64,000 bases of DNA from Candidatus Endolissoclinum faulkneri L5 (GTDB lineage Bacteria > Pseudomonadota > Alphaproteobacteria > Thalassobaculales > Thalassobaculaceae). Location: the NCBI RefSeq assembly GCF_000510265.1, contig NZ_CP006745.1, forward strand, positions 1,261,654 to 1,325,653. The letters run 5' to 3'. Each line of letters opens with the position of its first letter. Position 1 is the stretch's first letter. Both the position numbers and the translations under genes were made by a program. Shown here in pieces: positions 10,494 through 64,000 of the stretch. The notes under the pieces were generated by a model. The model was not told where the DNA came from. It searched no databases and worked only from the letters and a program-made list of their open reading frames with translations.

Positions 10494-12092
<1,599 letters not shown>

Positions 12093-13720: not shown

Positions 13721-15761
13721 GTTTAACTAAAGAAAACATTTATTTGTTATTATTAAAAACTGATAGATTAATAGTTTATCGCGATCCATCAAATTTACAG
13801 TAATAAAATGCTAGTTAGTGGTCGTGAAAATTTGAGATATTTTTCTAAACTTGATTAATAGAATGGAAAATATCTTAACTAAGATTAAGGAATGATCTGC
13901 TCTATACGAAACTTTTGCCTTTTTAAGATAGTTTTTTAAACACATCAATTCGCTGTTCACTAAAGCGATACCGAAAATAACTAAAAATCGATTATACTAC
14001 AGTACTAACAAAACAAGCTTATTAACAACCTTAATTATTTCTTCATTCAAGCTTACTGCTTTTCCTCAACAGAGGAAAGCTGAAGAAATTATTCAAGTAA
14101 CTGAAATACGACAATACTAATGCTGTGTGTATATAAAAAAAATAATAGCTTACAAATGTATCTCTTCAGTGGCAGAATCTTTAAGAAATAATCTAGATGA
14201 TAATATAACTGTTGAAATTTGATACAAAAGTTAAAGTTTAATAGAAAAGCTGTACGTCACATAATGATAAATACTAAGTATTGCTAAATAGCATTTTTTA
14301 TAAAAATTTAACAGATAACTATAGATATATAACAATATGCTGATCAAATAAATAAGCTATCGTATGCATGTATTCTCAACATAGTTAAATCCAAATGCGA
14401 TGATCTTATCTATCGGATCATTAGTTTCAATAATAGCAATACGTTACGTAAGTAAAGTATTAAAAATTGATACGTTTTATGTTGGATAAAGAACTAATAA
14501 TTTTTATTAAATAAACACTATCTACATCTTTAGCAAAGCTACTTGTTTGAAGAACTGAACTGAATAATGCAACAAGGGAATCTTTGAACTACAAGAAAAG
14601 ATAAAACTAGCATGTGGAATAAATTAAGTGATAGTATAAGTAAATATATTTGTTATATATGATCTATAGAATTAGTTAATAGAATAATTCAATAATACTA
14701 TTTTAAAATCTATAAAATAATTGTTATTATCCATTAGCTAGGTAAATTATTAAGGTTTAGTAATTAAAACCTAATTAATATATGACAAATTTCCGCTGAA
14801 TGCAATACAAACACACAGAATAAAATTTAATTTATTGAATAAAATATTGAATAAAATTGCGCTTAAAATTTAAACTGATATTTTATTAACGTTAGCAAGA
14901 ATAAATTTCCATTATAATTTAGTAATTATTATTATAAATATATCAGCTTATTTAAAATATTTATTCATCATCACAATCTATTAGCTAATTTGCCAGACAG
15001 ACTAACGAGGTTACAACTAAAAGTGATAATTGATATTAAACCAAAGCTAATAAATCAGGTAAATTAAGCACATACACGAAAAAAATAATTGATTTCTTAA
15101 CCCACAATGTTTGATTAATTTTTATGACAAAATTACATTAAGTCAATGCATTAATAGATGTAATTACAATTAATTTGCTACTCTATAAACTTTGATATAA
15201 TAACAACAAAAAGTTGAGCATTAGATTAACTTCTAATCTAATATTAAACTAAATAAATGTTAACATAACTAATCAAGGTTGATATTTTTTTAAATTACGA
15301 AGAACAACAGCTTTTTAGATAAAACAAATTAAAAAACTAAAAATTCAGAACAAACCGCTCAAAAAAAATTAAAGCGCAGAAAGCCAAGATCCTCCATCGA
15401 GAGCTATATTTTTACACCGCAGTCCAATTAAGGATACTTAAGAATAATTGGTAAGTAATTAATTTAATTTAACACTGAAACTGAGATTGTTAAGATACGA
15501 AACATAGAGCTAATATAAACAAACAGTAACATACTTCTACAAACCGATCACTGGTCTTTACGAAAGATCAAAATAATTTATAATAAAAGATAATATCACG
15601 TGACAATAAGTAATAACTTGTATTATAAGTAATAACTTGTATTATAGTTCGGCTAGATAAAAATACTTAAGCTCCGACTAAAAACTACGGTTAATCTTCT
15701 TAATAATTTCTCCCCACTTAAATCTATAAATATTACATATTTATTTCACCTGATCAATATT
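13721..15761. other. Gene-free AT-rich stretch between tRNA-Gln and rpmF
   Basis: No coding sequence recognised. It contains a perfect 19-bp tandem duplication at 15606-15643 and a 12-bp one at 14833-14856 (TATTGAATAAAA twice). Confidence 0.55.
15606..15643. repeat. Perfect 19-bp tandem duplication
   Basis: ATAAGTAATAACTTGTATT occurs at 15606-15624 and 15625-15643, followed by ATAG, so the match runs on for 3 bases into the flank. Confidence 0.95.
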
Positions 15762-24933: not shown

Positions 24934-25182
24934 TTACTCTTGCGCAAAACAAAGAAAAGATAAGAAATTAAGTATTGGTTGGCAATTGCCTTCTAATATG
25001 AAAAAATTAGCAAATATAATTGCTAAGCCATTTAGCATTACACACTGCCCGCTTGAAGTTTAGCGATGCAGAACCATGCTTTTAGCAAAAGCTACTTTAT
25101 CACCTCCTTCAGCATCTAATCATTCTACTATAGAAGTGTTAGAAGATCTATAACGCGCTTAGCTGAGATCATCTTTTAAATT
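24934..25182 (-). pseudogene. Possible relic of a decayed coding sequence, family unknown
   Basis: One minus-strand frame reads coherently through three stops (at 25159-25161, 25120-25122 and 25060-25062), including the segment LDAEGGDKVAFAKSMVLHR, which is richer in Gly, Ala and Glu than random AT-rich DNA would give. No family recognised. Part of the signal comes from a perfect AAGGAGGTGAT, which could also be an orphan ribosome binding site. Chance cannot be excluded. Confidence 0.25.
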
Positions 25183-25226
25183 TCAAGCCAAATTCAAAAA
25201 CTAAATTTCAAGCCAAATTCAAAAAC
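25177..25226. repeat. Perfect 25-bp tandem duplication
   Basis: Bases 25177-25201 are repeated exactly at 25202-25226; the unit contains TTTCAAGCCAAATTC. The flank after copy 2 (CAATT) does not match the start of the unit (TAAAT). Confidence 0.95.
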
Positions 25227-28242: not shown

Positions 28243-28284
28243 AACTACGATAAACTGCATGATAACTACGATAAACTGCATGAT
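28243..28284. repeat. Perfect 21-bp tandem duplication
   Basis: Bases 28243-28263 are repeated exactly at 28264-28284; the unit contains ACTACGATAAACTGCATGAT. Confidence 0.95.
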
Positions 28285-29137
28285 ACGGTTATGTAAATTT
28301 TCTTAATAATAAAATGCCTTAACTGATGTGTTATCAAAAGTAGGAATAATTCTGATTAACTAAGTTAATTATGAATCCGTTGAAGGGCAATAGCGACTTA
28401 ATTAAACTCCAATAGCACTCATAAGAAATCCTGTATGCTACTTTTAGTAGTTTAGCACTTGGTTTAACATAGCTACTTATTAAGCATTGGATTAACAGGC
28501 TATTCATAAAAATATTCTTAATCGTCGAAAAGAAGCACTAACATCTAAGTGGTAAATAGGTAATTCTTTGAAAAAGAAATGTAAAGCTTTTTCATTATCT
28601 TTAGCTATAAAGCTAAATAAATGTAAATGATAATTTTCTAGAGCTATTCAATACAGTCAAATTTATTATGGCATACCTATAAATCATTATTAAAAGCAAA
28701 CTAGCCTTGTATGCACAAATAATACTTTAGTGCAGTTAAAAGTTTTTTTATTTAAGATTATAGAATCAATTTAAATAATAAATTAAAAAGCTGCTAGTTT
28801 CTTCGCTGCCAATGCTATATGAAAGCTAGAAATGCTATAGAAAATCCTTTATTGTATATCAGATATTATTATCCATGAATGCAAAGATTGGTTCTAGCTT
28901 TAGGCAAGAAAAATCGTAAATCAAAACCCAAATGGTCATTTAATTCGCTCTAGCAATTAATTAGGATATTGAACTTAAGCTAAGTTATATCTATGAAGAA
29001 ATAGAGATCTGAAATATTTTGTAAGTTATGGACTACCTTCTAGTTAATTTAACATTCACTAATTTTAGATAATTCTCGTATTGTTTCCTCTGGAAAGACT
29101 AGTAGCTAAATACTGCGATCTATATTATAAGATCTTA

Positions 29138-29185
29138 CAGACATTCTAGGCATATATTATCCAGACATTCTAGGCATATATTATC
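29138..29185. repeat. Perfect 24-bp tandem duplication
   Basis: Bases 29138-29161 are repeated exactly at 29162-29185; the unit contains CAGACATTCTAGGCATATAT. The following flank (AATTT) shares no base with the unit start. Confidence 0.95.
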
Positions 29186-36909: not shown

Positions 36910-37906
36910 GATTGCTCCCAGAAAATTATGTTCGTTTTTTTAGAAAAAATGTATAATAAAATGGTTAACTTTATTTATATGATGAATATCATATCTACTT
37001 ATTAGCTTTAAAATTAATTATTTGTGATTATAATGATCCTAGATCACAAACGCAAATTTAGTATACTTTTTAATTGCTAGTAATTTATAGCCTGTATAGA
37101 GCATAAGATAACCTTAACGTTTTTAAAATGTTTATAATTTGCTGCTTGGTAGAAGATTTATTTATATTTATAGTAGGAATTTTATATCTTAGATCTTATT
37201 TTATCGGTAAATCAATGATATAATATCATCTACTTCTCAGCTATTACTAACCTTATAATGTGCTTTAACTTACATTTTAAGTAGTGCAGATGAATATTTC
37301 CTAGTTCCTTATAAGATCGTTTCTCTTATTTATTCATTATTTATCAAGGCGTATAATCAAAACGAGTATAATAGTAATTTATCATATTTGATAAATTACT
37401 ATTGAAGAGCGGAAGAAAGAAATATAATCTAGAAGATACCTAAGTTATTACACTAATGATATTTAAAATAAAATTAGCTATAATATTAAAAATATAGATG
37501 AATAATTTTAGCAAAGTAAAACCTAGCCAGCTGTCGCTTGACTTTATGCATAATAAAATATTTTCATTATTCAAAATAAAAACTTATGTTGTATATTAGG
37601 TTTGTAGTAGCTGAAATCTTAACAAGTATTGTTTTACTTAATAAGTACGTGCTGCAAGCTAGTATTAAGTAATTTGTTTGATCCATAGTCTAGATATGCT
37701 ATGAATCATTTTGTTATCTCACAATCAAATTTATCAAATAACTCACAAATCTTACAAGATCTTAGAATTATTATTATAGTAATAATCAATTTTATTGAAT
37801 TAAAAAAACAGATAAATTTAAAATTACAAATTATTGTATTTTTACAATAAAGCTAGTCTTTATAGAATTTTTGATAATTTAAATTTAGACTGCCGGAGAA
37901 AGTTAA
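36910..37906. other. Gene-free stretch between rpoD and uppP
   Basis: No gene recognised. It contains the perfect 15-bp-arm hairpin at 37370-37403. Confidence 0.55.
37370..37403. repeat. Perfect inverted repeat, 15-bp arms, 4-nt loop
   Basis: AATAGTAATTTATCA (37370-37384), loop TATT, then its exact complement TGATAAATTACTATT (37389-37403). It lies 460 bp after rpoD on the same strand. There is no U tract, so it is not a standard intrinsic terminator. Confidence 0.75.
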
Positions 37907-38698
37907 GTGTCTATTGATCATATAATTTTTATAGCATTAATTCAGGGTGTTACTGAATTTCTTCCTGTAAGCTCTTCGGGTCACTTAATAATGATTCCAA
38001 CTATACTTGGTACTGATGATCAAGGAATGATAATTGATGTAGCAGTTCATGTTGGCAGTTTGTTGGCTGTATGCATATACCTGTGGCGCTATATCGCTCA
38101 CATGATTCTTGGTACATTACGAGGATATCGAGATCCTGGCTTTCGCTTAACTATGCAAATAATTCTAGCAACCATATCCATTATTTGCGCTGGTTATATA
38201 ATGAAGTATTACATAAATGATATTATTCGTTCTCCAAAAATAGTTGCTTGGGCTAATCTTGGCTTTGGTATTGTACTAGGAATTGTCGATCGGCTTGGTA
38301 GAACAAGCCGAAGAATTAAACATATGTCCTACAAAGATGCTCTAATTATCGGATTTGCACAGATATTCGCCCTGATTCCAGGCACCAGTCGTTCCGGCAT
38401 CACCATAACAGCATCTCGGGCACTAGGGTACGAACGCCAAGAAGCAAGTCGTTTTTCAATGCTCATAGGAATTCCAGCAATACTTGCTGCAGGAACAGCA
38501 ATTAGTTTAGATTTATACCGTTATAGTGATGTTCAACTTACTATCGACGCATTGATAGCTGTTGGATTATCATTTTTTACTGCCTTGACATCAATCGTGC
38601 TAATGATGAATTGGTTAAAGTGTGCAAGCTTTTTTCCATTCGTAATTTACCGTATCTTATTCGGAAGTGGATGGCTAATTTGGCTCTACAGGACATAA
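37907..38698 (+). CDS. uppP: Undecaprenyl-diphosphatase UppP (BacA)
   Basis: UppP is a membrane phosphatase that recycles undecaprenyl diphosphate for peptidoglycan and surface-polymer synthesis. The 263-residue protein is the usual size, with about eight hydrophobic segments. Signature motifs are QGVTEFLPVSSSGH (13-26), with the key Glu17 and His26, HVGSLLAV, and the second conserved loop PGTSRSGIT. It uses a GTG start with GGAG about 8 nt upstream; no nearby ATG fits better. No operon partner is seen. It is followed by a 2-kb gene-free region with a large palindrome, beyond which lpxK is convergent. Confidence 0.96.
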   Translation: MSIDHIIFIALIQGVTEFLPVSSSGHLIMIPTILGTDDQGMIIDVAVHVGSLLAVCIYLWRYIAHMILGTLRGYRDPGFRLTMQIILATISIICAGYIMKYYINDIIRSPKIVAWANLGFGIVLGIVDRLGRTSRRIKHMSYKDALIIGFAQIFALIPGTSRSGITITASRALGYERQEASRFSMLIGIPAILAAGTAISLDLYRYSDVQLTIDALIAVGLSFFTALTSIVLMMNWLKCASFFPFVIYRILFGSGWLIWLYRT

Positions 38699-39496
38699 AT
38701 CTGCTTTCCCAATAAATATGCCGGACATGGCAAATAAATAGGTATAAGACCATACAATATAATAACGGCGCAGTGCTATTTTCTATTACTTAGTATTTTC
38801 TCTAAACTTTATTCGACTACTTGAAGTTTATAGTTCTTTATAATCGTTTTAATTAACTTAGAATAAACCTATAACAAAGCAATTCCAGTGCATTAAGCAT
38901 TATACACAAGCATATTTCAAAAGATTTAGCTTCGATAATACATCTGTGTAAATTCTAAATGCTTCTGCACATTTTTTAAGTATAGAACCAGCGGGACAGA
39001 AGCAATCGCTATAAAAAGAATACAGTGGATATTCGCGTTGGACTTATAATACGCGATAAAGTATATTAAACCTTTTAAGGTAAGAAAAATAAGCTTTCTT
39101 CTTCTGTTCTGTAAAAACACGAAATAAATCTATTACATACGGTATTTGCTTTTCTCAGCACAACTGATAGTTGTCTCCACATCGTGAAGTTAAAAACTTC
39201 TAGAAACAATCCTATTCGAGAATAATCCAGCCCAAACGTAAACAAATAACACCAATTTATTCTAATAAACTATAAATAATACTATTAACTTACATCAACA
39301 ATAATTTAACAAAACATTGCAAACTCCGGTCGCCTTATAATATAGCACAACTATATATCTTCACGATATTTATTAGGTCAATAATTTTTTCACAGATACA
39401 ATCATAAAGAATAATATAAATATTTTTGCTCAACATTTGTTGGGGCATATTTAAGATATTGTATTTATATATTTTAATATATTTTAGCATGGGTTA

Positions 39497-39559
39497 AATA
39501 CATAAATAAGCACCACTTGCTAGTATAACACACTAGCAAGTGGTGCTTATTTATGTATT
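39497..39559. repeat. Perfect inverted repeat, 28-bp arms, 7-nt loop
   Basis: Left arm 39497-39524 (contains AAGCACCACTTGCTAG), loop 39525-39531 (ATAACAC), right arm 39532-39559 exactly complementary. The inner half is GC-richer than its surroundings. It lies between convergent genes but 0.8 kb and 1.2 kb from their stops, without a T tract on either side. Confidence 0.95.
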
Positions 39560-39820
39560 CTTAAGGACTTGTCAAATTAATTAAACGAATGGACTCAGAA
39601 TAAAAATTAAATTTTAAATAGCTTAAACAAAATTTTTAACTAAAGTACTAATTATAAATTAATTAAAAAAAAACAAGCGTTTAATTAAACATTTTGAGGA
39701 TTATTACCTATAATAGGGTAAATCATAGACTAACCAATCAATAGTTTAAATAAAAAAAGTGTAAATAAAAAAATGACTGTTAAAAATTTTGTTAAAGCTA
39801 ATTATAATGAGTTATCTATA

Positions 39821-39860
39821 TTTATTACTCTATAGTTTAATTTATTACTCTATAGTTTAG
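39821..39860. repeat. 20-bp tandem duplication
   Basis: TTTATTACTCTATAGTTTAA (39821-39840) is followed by the same 20 bases with a final G (39841-39860); 19 of 20 match. Confidence 0.9.
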
Positions 39861-40761
39861 TTTTTATATTTAATATTGTTTCAGATATGGGCAAATAATT
39901 ATCATGGTCGCCCCAAATCGATAAAGTTTTAATTTTAGAAGAGCAATTTATATAATCACTTATAATGCTACTTACTTAATTAAGAAAAAAGAAGCAATTG
40001 CAACAATTATTTAAAATACAACTTTAGTAGCACGAGTCTCTACAGCAATTAATCAAAATTAACAGTGCCTTCAAGCAATTTTTGCTACTCAAAAGTATAT
40101 TAAGGACAAGAAGTTGTACGTTACGCAATATATAAAGATTAATTACTCTAAAATCAATACTAATTACCTAATTGAATGTATTTTAATCAAATATAAAAAA
40201 TATTTTATGAACTTATACGCTTATCTTTGAGCAAAGAAGTTAAAAAATTAATCAAAATAAAATGATGTATTAAAAAAACTAGGTTGTATGAATAAGACAA
40301 AAATACCTTATTTACAAAATATCTTTCAATAATTCTATCACATTAACTCTGTAGGTAATAAAGAATAATAATTATTTTTGTTGGTCATATTGTTTTGTGC
40401 ACTCATCAAATTAATACTAAAATATTAGTTATGATTAATATTATTACTGGTATAATTTAACCATTATTAATCTTACAGATTAACATAATTGATTATCGCA
40501 TATAGCCAAAACAATCACCTAAACCACAAGATGAAATATGTACGATCAATTTTAACACTTGTTAATTAAAAGCATTAGAATGCCTACAAATAAATTTCTT
40601 ATTTCACCTATAGAAACTAGCTGCCAGCCTATTCAATAAAAAATTATTGAATTATCTAGAAGCTATTTCTGATAAAGCGAGAAATGAGTGACCTTACTAA
40701 TTGGAATGGTCTATATATCTAATTAATTATTCATCATAACTTCCAATGCTAAATAATACTC

Positions 40762-41733
40762 TTAAAAAGATAATATCCGATCCAAAAATATACTGAGCGC
40801 TGTTGGATCCCCCCAAACAAGCGATACTTCCACCACCGTGACGCTTGCTCTAATCTCTACCGGTAAACGTGTAGCATCTTTCGCCGTAGTCACTAAGATT
40901 GCATCTTCAAAAACTGCTTCTTCTACTAGCTTATTCAACTCAGATAATCTATAAGGGTGATGATCAGCAAAAGAACGAAAACCAATCACCTTAGCGCCGA
41001 TTTTTATAAGAGTTTCATGGAATTTATATGGTCTACCAATTCCAGCAAAGGCCAGTACCCGACAGTTGCGTAAAGATAAAGCTGCAAGAGATGGCTCTAA
41101 CATTCCAAGTAGTACTAAACGTTTGTCGCCAATCAAAGATTTAATTTCTCTACGATCCTCACCTATCAATAATACTGCATGCGATTTCTGCAAAGAATCT
41201 TTCCATGGTTCGCGCAATGGCCCAGAAGGAATTACTTGACCATTTCCGATCCCAATAACGCCATCAACTACAAGTAAAGAGATGGTTGGTATGACAGAAG
41301 GATTCTGCAAACCATCGTCCATAATAATAACATCACACCCACTATCTTCCAGTAATCTAGCGCCATCAGGCAAACAACGTGCAACAACCGTCGGAGCTCT
41401 TGCAGTCAACAAGATAGACTCATCCCCTACATCAGCGAATGTATGCACAGCTAAATCTACATGTATAGGTCCAGCATGACGTCCACCGTAGCCTCGTGAT
41501 AATAATCCCACTCGCTTGCCATGAGCAATTAACTTACTAGCAATAGCTAACACAGTTGGAGTTTTACCAGCACCGCCTACTATTGCATTACCTACACAAA
41601 TTAGCGGTAAGCTCGAACGATACGGCTTCGTTATAGCTTTACGGATGCAAGTAACTAATCTCCAAAGCCAACTAATAGGCAACAGAGCTAGTGCTAGCCA
41701 ACCAGCAGTTTGCCAAAACTTAGGTGACACCAA
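40762..41733 (-). CDS. lpxK: Tetraacyldisaccharide 4'-kinase LpxK
   Basis: LpxK phosphorylates the 4' position of the lipid A disaccharide at the inner membrane, giving lipid IVA, the acceptor for Kdo. The 323-residue protein has an N-terminal hydrophobic anchor (about 10-28), VGNAIVGGAGKTP with the P-loop at 53-59, the LSRGYGG motif, and the conserved DDGLQNPSV block. Length is normal. It is the last gene of a tight trio with the acyltransferase and waaA: its start overlaps the waaA 3' end by 14 bp, so translation is probably coupled. Its presence with waaA implies that a lipopolysaccharide outer leaflet, or at least Kdo-lipid A, is still made. Confidence 0.96.
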   Translation of the reverse strand: MVSPKFWQTAGWLALALLPISWLWRLVTCIRKAITKPYRSSLPLICVGNAIVGGAGKTPTVLAIASKLIAHGKRVGLLSRGYGGRHAGPIHVDLAVHTFADVGDESILLTARAPTVVARCLPDGARLLEDSGCDVIIMDDGLQNPSVIPTISLLVVDGVIGIGNGQVIPSGPLREPWKDSLQKSHAVLLIGEDRREIKSLIGDKRLVLLGMLEPSLAALSLRNCRVLAFAGIGRPYKFHETLIKIGAKVIGFRSFADHHPYRLSELNKLVEEAVFEDAILVTTAKDATRLPVEIRASVTVVEVSLVWGDPTALSIFLDRILSF

Positions 41734-43000
41734 GAGGTTTCTCGGGAAGTATTGGATCTATTACCTCCAAAATAGAATTAATTTTAATAGCTCTCGCTAT
41801 AGCAACCCTTCGCGCACATGCTCCCATTTCATTTGCTGTTATTGGATCGTCTAGTAGATCTTCAACCGTTTTAGCTAAGCTAGCAGCATCATTAACCTCT
41901 CTTGCGGCACCAGCCGCAATAAGAGCATCAGCAGATTCACGATTGTTCTCCATAAGCGGGCCAAATACTATTGCGGTACCGCAATAGGAAGCTTCTATCG
42001 GATTATGACCACCTACTTTTACCATAGAACCAGCCAAAAAGGTGACCGGTATGACACTGTAAAAAATAGCAATCTCGCCCATCGTATCGGCTAAGTATAC
42101 AGAAGTTCTTTCTTTTATTGATTGATTAGCCGAGCGACGGACTAAAGTTAATCCTCTCCTTTGCACAATACGAGCAATCTCATCGCTTCGATTTGTATGA
42201 CGCGGCACAATAACTGTTAGCAAGTTTGGTTTAGTTTTAGCAATCTGAGCATGAGCATCAAGAACTAGCGATTCCTCACCTCGATGAGTGCTAGCGGCAA
42301 GCCAAACCGGACGATAGGTAATAGAATTTCGCAATGCTGCAGCAATTTTTATATCTACTTTAGGAGGAACAATGGAGTCTTTCAAATTACCTACATAACG
42401 CACATCAACACAACCCAAAGCAAAGAAACGTCTTACTTGCTCATGGCTAGCAGCCAACACCAGATCAAATGCGCTAAACAAAGGTTTAGCCAAACTACCT
42501 ATACTTTTCCAGCGTTGAAATGCGCGGAAAGATAATCTACCTGAAACAATAATCATATAGATGCCGCGTGCATTAGCCTCAGTCACCATAGTTGGCCATA
42601 AATCTGACTCCATCCAAATAGCTAAATCGGGGTTCCAATAATCAAGAAATCGCCCCACCCAAGCCGGCCGATCTATGGGTATAAACTGATGAATCACCCC
42701 TTTAGGTAATAATTTGCGGATTAAATCACCTGAAGTAACAGTGCAAGTAGTCAATAACAAGATAATCCATGGCTTGGTATCATGGATTATCTTAATTAAA
42801 GCAAGAAGCCCAGCCGCCTCACCTACACTAACAGCATGTAACCAGACTAATCGGCCAGATGGGCGGGATTTAGTAGCTATGCCGCGTCGTTCATTTAAAC
42901 GAAATTTATTTTCCTTTCCTCGCACTAATCTCAGCCTAAAATATACATCAAGAAATAATCCTGAGAATGTAACAAGTGCTTTGTATATTTGTAAAATCAC
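41720..43000 (-). CDS. waaA: 3-deoxy-D-manno-octulosonic acid (Kdo) transferase
   Basis: WaaA transfers Kdo from CMP-Kdo to lipid IVA at the cytoplasmic face of the inner membrane. The 426-residue GT-B glycosyltransferase has an N-terminal membrane anchor (about 1-20), the conserved WLHAVSVGEA block, WMESDLWPT, and the C-terminal donor-binding segment around AGSMVKVGGHNPIEASYCG. The ATG overlaps the stop of the upstream acyltransferase gene in an ATGA junction (42997-43000), and its 3' end overlaps lpxK by 14 bp, the usual compact alphaproteobacterial arrangement. Whether one or two Kdo residues are added cannot be told from the sequence. Confidence 0.96.
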   Translation of the reverse strand: MILQIYKALVTFSGLFLDVYFRLRLVRGKENKFRLNERRGIATKSRPSGRLVWLHAVSVGEAAGLLALIKIIHDTKPWIILLLTTCTVTSGDLIRKLLPKGVIHQFIPIDRPAWVGRFLDYWNPDLAIWMESDLWPTMVTEANARGIYMIIVSGRLSFRAFQRWKSIGSLAKPLFSAFDLVLAASHEQVRRFFALGCVDVRYVGNLKDSIVPPKVDIKIAAALRNSITYRPVWLAASTHRGEESLVLDAHAQIAKTKPNLLTVIVPRHTNRSDEIARIVQRRGLTLVRRSANQSIKERTSVYLADTMGEIAIFYSVIPVTFLAGSMVKVGGHNPIEASYCGTAIVFGPLMENNRESADALIAAGAAREVNDAASLAKTVEDLLDDPITANEMGACARRVAIARAIKINSILEVIDPILPEKPLGVT

Positions 43001-43823: not shown

Positions 43824-43852
43824 CACTAATAATTAACGATTAATTATTAGTG
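43824..43852. repeat. Perfect inverted repeat, 13-bp arms, 3-nt loop
   Basis: CACTAATAATTAA (43824-43836), loop CGA, then TTAATTATTAGTG (43840-43852). It lies 126 bp upstream of the acyltransferase-waaA-lpxK operon, so it could be an operator or leader hairpin, or one of the AT palindromes scattered between genes. Confidence 0.7.
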
Positions 43853-47089: not shown

Positions 47090-47593
47090 TTTAATTAGCA
47101 TAATTGCTGTCGCTATTGTTTGACTGTACGACATTCAAGCCATACTACGAATTAAAGTATAATTAGTAGATTCAATTAATAATTAGATGATCATATAGAA
47201 TGAAACGCACTTGATAATAATATCAAATATAAATTTGATATTATTATCATTAGAAAGTTCAAAATATAACAATGCTTTCCCAACCTAATTGCTTAAAATT
47301 TACAAAACGGCTGGAATAATACATTAAAATGCGTTTTGTATATGCTAGATAAAAATTAATGACCCGATGACAAGATTTGTTATTTCCTGTTTAAACATAC
47401 ACAACCAAATACCTCACTAAAGTTAAGAATAAATGGATTCTTTGCATTAACCTGTAAACTGTAGATAAATTTTATACTTCAATCGGATGATTTTTAAATA
47501 CATGCTTCAACAATAACTACTACGAAAGTTTCGCATAGAGTTCTAAATTTCTTTAATCAAGCCGTATTTGATTCCAAGCAAAAATTTATATAA
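47090..47593. other. Intergenic stretch between the convergent aguA and secA genes
   Basis: It contains a perfect 17-bp-arm hairpin (47212-47249); nothing else recognised. Confidence 0.6.
47212..47249. terminator. Perfect AT-rich inverted repeat between convergent genes, possible bidirectional terminator
   Basis: TGATAATAATATCAAAT (47212-47228), loop ATAA, then ATTTGATATTATTATCA (47233-47249). It lies 123 bp after the aguA stop and 345 bp after the secA stop. Position suits a shared terminator, but low GC and the absence of a clean T tract argue against a standard intrinsic one. Confidence 0.35.
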
Positions 47594-56513: not shown

Positions 56514-56550
56514 TAAAATCATATAACGTACAATGTGTTATATGATTTTA
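56514..56550. repeat. Perfect inverted repeat, 14-bp arms, 9-nt loop
   Basis: TAAAATCATATAAC (56514-56527) and GTTATATGATTTTA (56537-56550), loop GTACAATGT. It lies 370 bp after the pgpA stop; no T tract follows on either strand. Confidence 0.75.
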
Positions 56551-56752: not shown

Positions 56753-56784
56753 ATCAAGCAAATAAAAAATCAAGCAAATAAAAA
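56753..56784. repeat. Perfect 16-bp tandem duplication
   Basis: ATCAAGCAAATAAAAA occurs at 56753-56768 and 56769-56784. Confidence 0.9.
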
Positions 56785-62826: not shown

Positions 62827-64000
62827 ATCACAATAAGTGTTAATACATAATCTGGACACTAGCACAATATTATTATTGACTTATTACTCAATAAGCGCAA
62901 TGAATGTATTTTTGGTGTCAAGGGTTTTTATGCTTGAAATATAACATTTCAAAGTATAATGAATCAAACAACAGTCTTCTATTTGTAACAAATCTTTACA
63001 CACTGACTAGTGTATCAAAGCACTGCTTAATCAAAAAAAGTATAGTATTTTATTAAATGAGTACAATATTTTAGATGTTTACTTTATTAATATCCTTAAA
63101 GATCCAAAGTCCAATCTTTGGTTACATAAATAAACATTTCCTCATAATCTAAAGTTGAAGATTGACTAAAAGGCTAAGCGATAAATCATTATAAGCAAAA
63201 CAGATATTATTAATGTGAAAAAATTAATTTTTAATATTATAATTATTTTAATACATCCAAGACTTACCCTTAGTAATAATTCATAAATTTAATGATTATT
63301 GCTATTGCCCACATACCTATTTTAGCTAATACAGCTAATGTATAAAACTACTCCTCAGTTTAAAAACTGAAGTGATTATCTTAAATTTTAAACCTAAAAG
63401 AACAGTTTTTATTGTAATATTAGTGGCATCATTCCAGTTAATAATATTACATCCTAAACAAAGTTTTACGCACTAGAAATCTACTGTTTTTAGTTTACAT
63501 AACAATTTAATAAGCGCTTATGTCTTATTTTTACATGTAAGTAAAAGGCTAAAATACTTTAGCTTATTATAATTACATTTATTAATTACTCTTGTCGCAT
63601 ATTTTTCGAAGCATTTCAATACTATTAATCGGTCAATATAAATTTCCTACGAAATCATGATTAATAAAAAATCAGATTTTTGCAGAACTAACTCAATAAG
63701 TATGTATTTAGAAATATAATTAGTATATTATTGTACCTTTGTTTAAATTAAATAGCTCCAATAAAAGCTTTTGATTTTTCGATTAATATTATAAAGTAAT
63801 TAATATTATAAAGTATAATCCTCATTAAAGATATTGTTTGAATAGATAAATAAAGCTTTTCTCTAAAAAATTATTATTTTATTTACAACTCAGTCAATAA
63901 CCGTAGCTAAATCACTTTTAACTAGTTCTTAGATTAGGTAAAAGTTCTCTTAGAATGAAACAAAACACATTTTTGATGCTAATAATTGAGAACATTACCA
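62827..64000. other. Gene-free AT-rich stretch to the window end
   Basis: No gene recognised; a perfect 17-bp tandem duplication lies at 63782-63815. Confidence 0.5.
63782..63815. repeat. Perfect 17-bp tandem duplication
   Basis: ATTAATATTATAAAGTA occurs at 63782-63798 and 63799-63815. Confidence 0.9.

Follow-up and report, generated by a model that had tools for sequence, protein, structure and literature searches.

The 64,000-nt stretch of the "Candidatus Endolissoclinum faulkneri" L5 genome analyzed here (the window) is part of a single 1,518,636-bp contig, and two primers from the published genome of this sea-squirt symbiont, listed at L5 coordinates 1,262,269 and 1,265,356 (PMC3851785), map to window positions 616 (+) and 3703 (−), precisely as these coordinates require. 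It contains, between two convergent genes, a decayed intergenic region of ∼2 kb (positions 38699 to 40761) whose alignment to the sister strain L2 is confined to the vicinity of its ends and to a stretch at about 39829 to 40412. On one side lies uppP (37907 to 38698, + strand), encoding an undecaprenyl-diphosphate phosphatase-like protein whose best NCBIfam match has an E value of 1e-82, just below the curated cut-off; on the other lies lpxK (40762 to 41733, − strand), which matches TIGR00682 above the cut-off. The unmatched part of this region contains a perfect palindrome (39497 to 39559) composed of a 28-nt left arm (39497 to 39524; G+C content, 0.32), a 7-nt loop (39525 to 39531), and a right arm (39532 to 39559) that is the exact reverse complement of the left (28 of 28 bp, 100%). 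An earlier note on this DNA had described this geometry together with a GC-richer inner half, a location between convergent genes but distant from both stops, and the lack of a T tract, and our analysis bears out each of these points: the left arm has 7 G+C in its inner 14 nt versus 2 in its outer 14 nt, the stops of uppP (+, 38698) and lpxK (−, 40762) are 799 and 1,203 nt away from the palindrome, respectively, and no T run directly follows the stem, the tails being CTTAAGGACTTG (+) and TAACCCATGCTA (−). The palindrome is real and far beyond chance expectation; when the window was dinucleotide-shuffled 10 times, the longest perfect hairpins measured 10 to 12 bp per shuffle, versus the 28 bp observed, and the folding energy of the + strand as single-stranded DNA is −29.8 kcal/mol, compared to a shuffle mean of −6.1 (z score, −11.7).

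Perfect hairpins in the L5 and L2 genomes

The palindrome is not exceptional in its genome but belongs, as one of the longer members, to a large class of hairpins unrelated in sequence. We sampled 924 kb of sequence, comprising 464 kb from L5, with the window as part of it, and 460 kb from L2, and counted perfect hairpins with arms of at least 12 bp and loops of at most 30 nt (loops of up to 60 nt were used for coding and noncoding densities); genes were defined by our own ORF calls of at least 100 amino acids (at least 90 in the comparator-genome sampling) and not by an annotation. There are 95 such hairpins in L5 and 86 in L2 (181 together), compared to 3 and 5, respectively, in two passes of the shuffle control (1.5 and 2.5 per pass), and those with arms of at least 16 bp number 40 in L5, 34 in L2, and zero in the shuffles. 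Arms reach 29 bp in L5 and 26 bp in L2; the three longest of the 181 sampled hairpins have arms of 29, 28, and 28 bp, the palindrome being one of the latter two. Most loops are short, at 0 to 9 nt, and the hairpins are concentrated outside genes, with densities of 0.396 per kb in noncoding versus 0.065 in coding DNA of L5 and 0.414 versus 0.042 in L2. Extrapolation to all of L5 gives about 311 hairpins with arms of at least 12 bp, 131 with arms of at least 16 bp, and 62 with arms of at least 20 bp. The mean arm G+C content of the class is about 0.17, versus 0.32 for the palindrome. A word search of the L5 genome paper (PMC3851785) returned no mention of palindromes, inverted repeats, or hairpins, and a literature search of titles and abstracts, within a limited library and wording, found no report of perfect hairpins in this symbiont.

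Other members of the class in the window include hairpins with 15-bp arms and a 4-nt loop (37370 to 37403), where the L2 counterpart aligns across without an arm-sized gap; with 13-bp arms and a 9-nt loop inside a waaA-like ORF (42759 to 42793), where L2 has a co-linear counterpart with 8 of 13 positions paired; with 13-bp arms and a 3-nt loop in noncoding DNA (43824 to 43852); with 17-bp arms and a 4-nt loop in a convergent intergenic region (47212 to 47249); and with 14-bp arms and a 9-nt loop in noncoding DNA (56514 to 56550). A 12-bp perfect hairpin inside an ORF (10638 to 10666) is identical in L2 (L061, 8950 to 8978).

Exact two-copy tandem duplications of 16 to 38 nt are a separate feature of L5, in which we found 41 nearby direct repeats of at least 16 nt in 14 of 21 sampled stretches. 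Those in the window lie at 25177 to 25226, 28243 to 28285, 29138 to 29185, 39820 to 39859, 56753 to 56784, and 63782 to 63815, and others occur beyond it in the sampled loci L021 to L040. L2 has 4 nearby direct repeats of at least 16 nt, and a single stretch (L059) contains all of them. The duplications may reflect either a mutation process specific to L5 or an effect of assembly.

Comparison of hairpin sites between the two strains

We compared hairpin intervals to their L2 or L5 counterparts in an anchored set of 45 noncoding hairpins with arms of at least 13 bp and anchors (≤60 nt) on both sides, drawn from at most 138 with arms of this length. The interval length minus that of the sister averaged −2.1 nt (standard error, 3.7; median, +1), compared to −3.1 nt (median, 0) in 600 control intervals, while an inserted or duplicated arm would predict a difference of about +17 nt. 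Of the 45 hairpins, 5 have an interval that exceeds the sister's by 12 nt or more, versus 6.5% of the controls, and 7 have one that falls short of it by 12 nt or more, versus 9.7%. The anchored hairpins are thus equal in length to the sister interval, which argues that an arm was not inserted. The exception is a hairpin at 14130 to 14172 of locus L036, where the sister is without 27 to 29 nt, or about an arm plus the loop, and which looks like an insertion in one strain or a deletion in the other.

These lengths bear on the fallback offered by the earlier note, a neutral inverted duplication, taken here as the insertion of an inverted copy of one arm beside the original with no prior quasipalindrome. 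Such an event would produce a perfect hairpin in one step, and the L036 case could be an example of it, but the class as a whole gains no length, and we consider it unlikely that the palindrome arose in this way. Among the proposals of the earlier note this one nonetheless comes nearest to our own reading, and the lack of a match to the palindrome in L2 agrees with it; it is the term "duplication" that does not fit the class.

The sister sequences also retain information on the sites themselves. For 43 hairpins (2 of the 45 were dropped for interval lengths differing by more than 60 nt), sister sites pair at 0.535 of arm positions versus 0.268 in 800 matched control windows; this excess is partly forced, since perfect arms that are ∼71% identical to the sister must pair about half the time, and it shows that the same co-linear site is being compared but does not show the event. 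A footprint in which one arm has been rewritten and the other conserved is weak and barely seen: the value for the worse arm is 0.623 versus 0.664 in the 800 matched windows (P = 0.037), and the between-arm difference is 0.169 versus 0.136 (P = 0.08). One hairpin within an ORF (L029, 2730 to 2766), with identities of 0.94 in one arm and 0.69 in the other, looks like one-arm rewriting. Loop inversion, a sign of template switching, was not seen among 22 gapless noncoding loops of at least 4 nt, where the forward loop is the better fit to the sister in 19 cases and the inverted loop in 2, with a tie in 1.

Imperfect members of the class are few. Of the 40 hairpins with arms of at least 20 columns, 27 have perfect arms (L5, 17 of 21; L2, 10 of 19), whereas neutral decay predicts a perfect share of 0.19 to 0.38 from point mutations alone and 0.29 to 0.35 if one change in five is an indel (the measured indel share of changes is 0.143). 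Perfect hairpins therefore exceed what constant birth and slow decay would leave, indicating that hairpins are renewed or lost quickly. The earlier note had reasoned that perfection in drifting DNA means either recent origin or selection; the class is indeed too perfect for slow decay by point mutation, as the first of these would have it, but the second finds no support in the covariation analysis given below.

Gene orientation, transcription, and the terminator reading

Hairpin density varies with the orientation of the flanking genes. With L5 and L2 pooled, we found 0.576 hairpins per kb in convergent gaps (n = 41), 0.416 in tandem gaps (n = 72), and 0.195 in divergent gaps (n = 23), an approximately threefold difference between convergent and divergent gaps (P = 2.4e-5) at similar G+C content. 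The gradient is still present where the nearest ORF is more than 300 nt away (0.553, 0.428, and 0.152, respectively; P = 2.8e-4). Densities in convergent, tandem, and divergent gaps are 0.467, 0.465, and 0.179 in L5 alone and 0.689, 0.366, and 0.210 in L2 alone; the low divergent value is therefore common to both strains, and the excess of convergent over tandem gaps comes from L2. This pattern suggests that hairpin density is linked to transcription reading into the gaps. Transcription-driven quasipalindrome mutation would fit the gradient, as might selection against hairpins in promoter regions.

The same gradient also counts in favor of a rival reading of the palindrome as a bidirectional terminator between uppP and lpxK, with a G+C core stem and A-rich and T-rich outer parts that block read-through both ways. 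The location between convergent genes agrees with this reading, as does a terminator scan that finds 4 terminator-like sites, all at the palindrome, versus 0.5 in shuffles, although the palindrome is flagged as terminator-like solely by counting the T-rich outer stem. Between uppP and lpxK of L2 there is likewise a perfect hairpin, of unrelated sequence and with 16-bp arms and a 6-nt loop (1,276,098 to 1,276,135). Against a terminator stand the distances to both stops and the missing T run at the palindrome itself, and the class behaves no differently: 23 of the 113 convergent and tandem hairpins lie within 150 nt of a stop, which is about equal to the share of sequence found there (42,955 of 244,081 bp), and in the 72 tandem hairpins the following 10 nt contain on average 3.65 T on the sense strand versus 3.53 on the antisense strand, with 5 sense and 8 antisense cases having at least 6 T. 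There is a mild T excess on either side of hairpins (48 of 136, versus 0.272 in controls). Since the hairpins show neither nearness to stops nor a sense-strand T tail, and since the gradient holds far from ORFs, terminators are a poor account of the class, and we regard this function as improbable for the palindrome.

Readings as a selected structure or a mobile repeat

Perfect pairing, a G+C-rich inner stem, and a strongly negative folding z score would also be compatible with selective maintenance of a structured RNA or a protein-binding site, both of which the earlier note had listed. The evidence from relatives runs the other way. The earlier note had asked for conservation in a sister genome, and the syntenic L2 gap (NC_019566.1) aligns at its ends and middle with no match at the palindrome, whose best local match in the L2 interval scores 31, within the shuffle range (mean, 26.8; maximum, 40), the surroundings having diverged too far from L2 for the site to be aligned. 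None of 40 relatives searched with the whole region (L2 and 39 others) matches at the palindrome, and the one match outside the genus (G032; E value, 8e-4) falls elsewhere in the query. A search of Rfam recovered no family at the gathering score and one chance match far below it. The G+C content of the palindrome is equaled or exceeded in 8 of 74 sampled hairpins with arms of at least 16 bp, the palindrome counted. For the class, 86 of the 181 hairpins are spanned by a BLAST alignment, a set that favors well-aligned hairpins, and in these the number of paired sister positions is close to that predicted from independent divergence, both in noncoding (536 of 1,021, versus 532.6 predicted) and in coding DNA (235 of 321, versus 233.9). 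There is thus no covariation of paired bases between the two strains in this set, and selection on structure is not supported; we consider a selected RNA or binding site very unlikely.

A separate case is a hairpin that occurs at the same site behind an ORF in both strains (L027, 13805 to 13849, in L5; L047, 18846 to 18888, in L2), with 16- and 15-bp arms, a 13-nt loop, and paired changes, L2 pairing at 15 of 16 positions. It stands apart from the other hairpins as a candidate terminator or conserved RNA structure.

The earlier note had also raised the possibility of a miniature mobile repeat and called for a genome-wide search for copies of the arm. A BLAST search of L5 with the palindrome recovered only the palindrome itself, in both orientations, and a search of L5 with its 17-nt core at up to 3 mismatches recovered the two arms and six other hits, all six at 3 mismatches and chance-like in number (controls gave 2 and 1). 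The lack of a second copy speaks against a mobile repeat, as do the absence of any phage match, the weakness of the plasmid matches (two, to Spiroplasma, at an E value of 0.2), and the L5 genome paper, which reports no mobile elements (PMC3851785). L5 was assembled from short reads, but the assembly k-mer of 67 bases is longer than the 63-nt palindrome (PMC3851785), and similar hairpin densities and avoidance of coding DNA are found in two separately assembled strains; a REP-like or miniature mobile element, which the stem-loop form alone would suggest, and an assembly artifact are accordingly the least probable of the readings considered here.

Repair genes and comparator genomes

The L5 genome is described as 55.6% coding with highly degraded intergenic DNA, and recA and mutSLH are reported lost (PMC3851785). 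We found recA to be absent from both L5 and L2 and present in all four other genomes of the genus, and the same distribution holds for xseA, encoding the large subunit of exonuclease VII (absent from L5 [G000] and L2 [G005]; a match is present in 107 of 115 genomes of the taxonomic class). recJ and addA are kept in all six genomes of the genus. Exonuclease VII limits quasipalindrome mutations of this type; our literature search for reports of this activity found nothing. We examined its loss as a cause of the hairpins and rejected it: two of three other xseA-less genomes (G127 and G076) have no noncoding hairpin in 9.5 kb, and the third (G032) has 5 in 10.4 kb, none with arms of at least 16 bp. 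SbcCD loss was likewise rejected, since the sbcD cut-off is passed by just 2 of 115 genomes of the taxonomic class (24 have any match; L2 was not part of this draw) and absence from L5 is therefore ordinary. In Escherichia coli, template-switch mutations perfect palindromes without need of RecA, and loss of recA alone does not raise template switching, whereas blocking the SOS response (lexA3) does (PMC6357072). With recJ and addA kept, and given the E. coli result for recA and the genome comparison for xseA, no repair gene tested explains the hairpin excess.

Hairpins were also counted in 12 comparator genomes, sampled at 20 to 120 kb each with 1 to 10 kb of noncoding DNA apiece; these are small samples, which we judged against shuffle expectation, and one locus (L091 of G043, 1.9 kb) was left out of the counts. 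G029 has 7 noncoding hairpins with arms of at least 12 bp in 9.8 kb (0.72 per kb), 3 of them with arms of at least 16 bp, and G032 has 0.48 per kb. The other 11 comparators have no hairpin with arms of at least 16 bp in about 50 kb of noncoding DNA, where the L5 rate predicts about 9. In E. coli K-12, 50 kb of sequence yielded 2 hairpins with arms of at least 12 bp. In G029, an alphaproteobacterium with a 1.4-Mb genome, some of the 7 hairpins resemble one another in sequence, and several stem-loops at L072 to L075 have similar arms ending in AGAAGTGCT or alike and are perhaps a REP-like repeat family.

Probable origin by template-switch perfecting of quasipalindromes

Terminator, mobile-element, and structured-RNA readings all fare worse than template-switch perfecting, and we conclude that the palindrome is probably one neutral product of a genome-wide process of this kind acting on quasipalindromes. 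This reading is built on the excess of unrelated perfect hairpins, their scarcity in coding DNA, the absence of length gain and of covariation, and the small number of imperfect members. In the proposed replication event, the nascent 3′ end would leave its template at a short inverted repeat, fold back on its own strand (or cross to the sister strand), copy one arm, and return; the second arm would thereby become an exact reverse complement of its partner with length roughly constant, and in drifting noncoding DNA the outcome would be neutral. We infer this fold-back step and any role of the lost repair genes, as well as the origin of the palindrome by the process that formed the class. More tentatively, "Ca. 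Endolissoclinum faulkneri" could be a natural template-switch mutator whose noncoding DNA is continually rewritten into perfect hairpins, with transcription into the gaps setting the rate and with birth and loss so fast that most hairpins are still perfect; we see this as possible but less than likely. If it were true, the decaying DNA would be a record of palindrome mutagenesis in the absence of RecA, SOS, and mismatch repair.

Taken by itself, the palindrome is ordinary in this genome, and it is the class that is useful. With two strains of conserved gene order, the perfecting and loss of quasipalindromes without RecA and mismatch repair can be followed in natural data, and the same data bear on whether transcription drives perfecting. 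They also call for caution, in that a perfect hairpin in a decayed symbiont genome need not signal function.

Several known systems resemble the one described here. At the lacZ QP5 and QP6 and thyA hotspots of E. coli, one arm templates the other and the palindrome is perfected with RecA unneeded (PMC6357072, PMC7202029); these are single assayed reporter sites, however, whereas L5 and L2 contain hundreds of fixed natural hairpins whose origin is deduced from sequence and whose footprint is weakly detected. Quasipalindrome events in yeast were seen only under high transcription (PMC3820800); the link in L5 and L2 is a correlation of hairpin density with gene orientation. Template switches in RNA hairpins likewise involve reverse-complement copying, by which a perfect stem arises in a single event or an existing stem is repaired (PMC8794818), but in RNA genes under selection rather than in the mostly noncoding, apparently neutral DNA that carries the hairpins of L5 and L2. 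Nematomorpha mitochondria, whose palindromes are coding, also have numerous perfect inverted repeats in a small, organelle-like genome (PMC6649704), although these reach 284 bp and lie within genes, compared to up to 29 bp and mostly outside genes in our sample. Finally, inverted repeats have been surveyed across 1,565 bacterial genomes, and a high frequency was reported in endosymbionts, with Buchnera the highest (PMC10434271); because that survey counts repeats of at least 6 bp and allows one mismatch, its results largely track base composition, whereas the L5 and L2 class consists of long, perfect hairpins of which shuffled sequences yield almost none.
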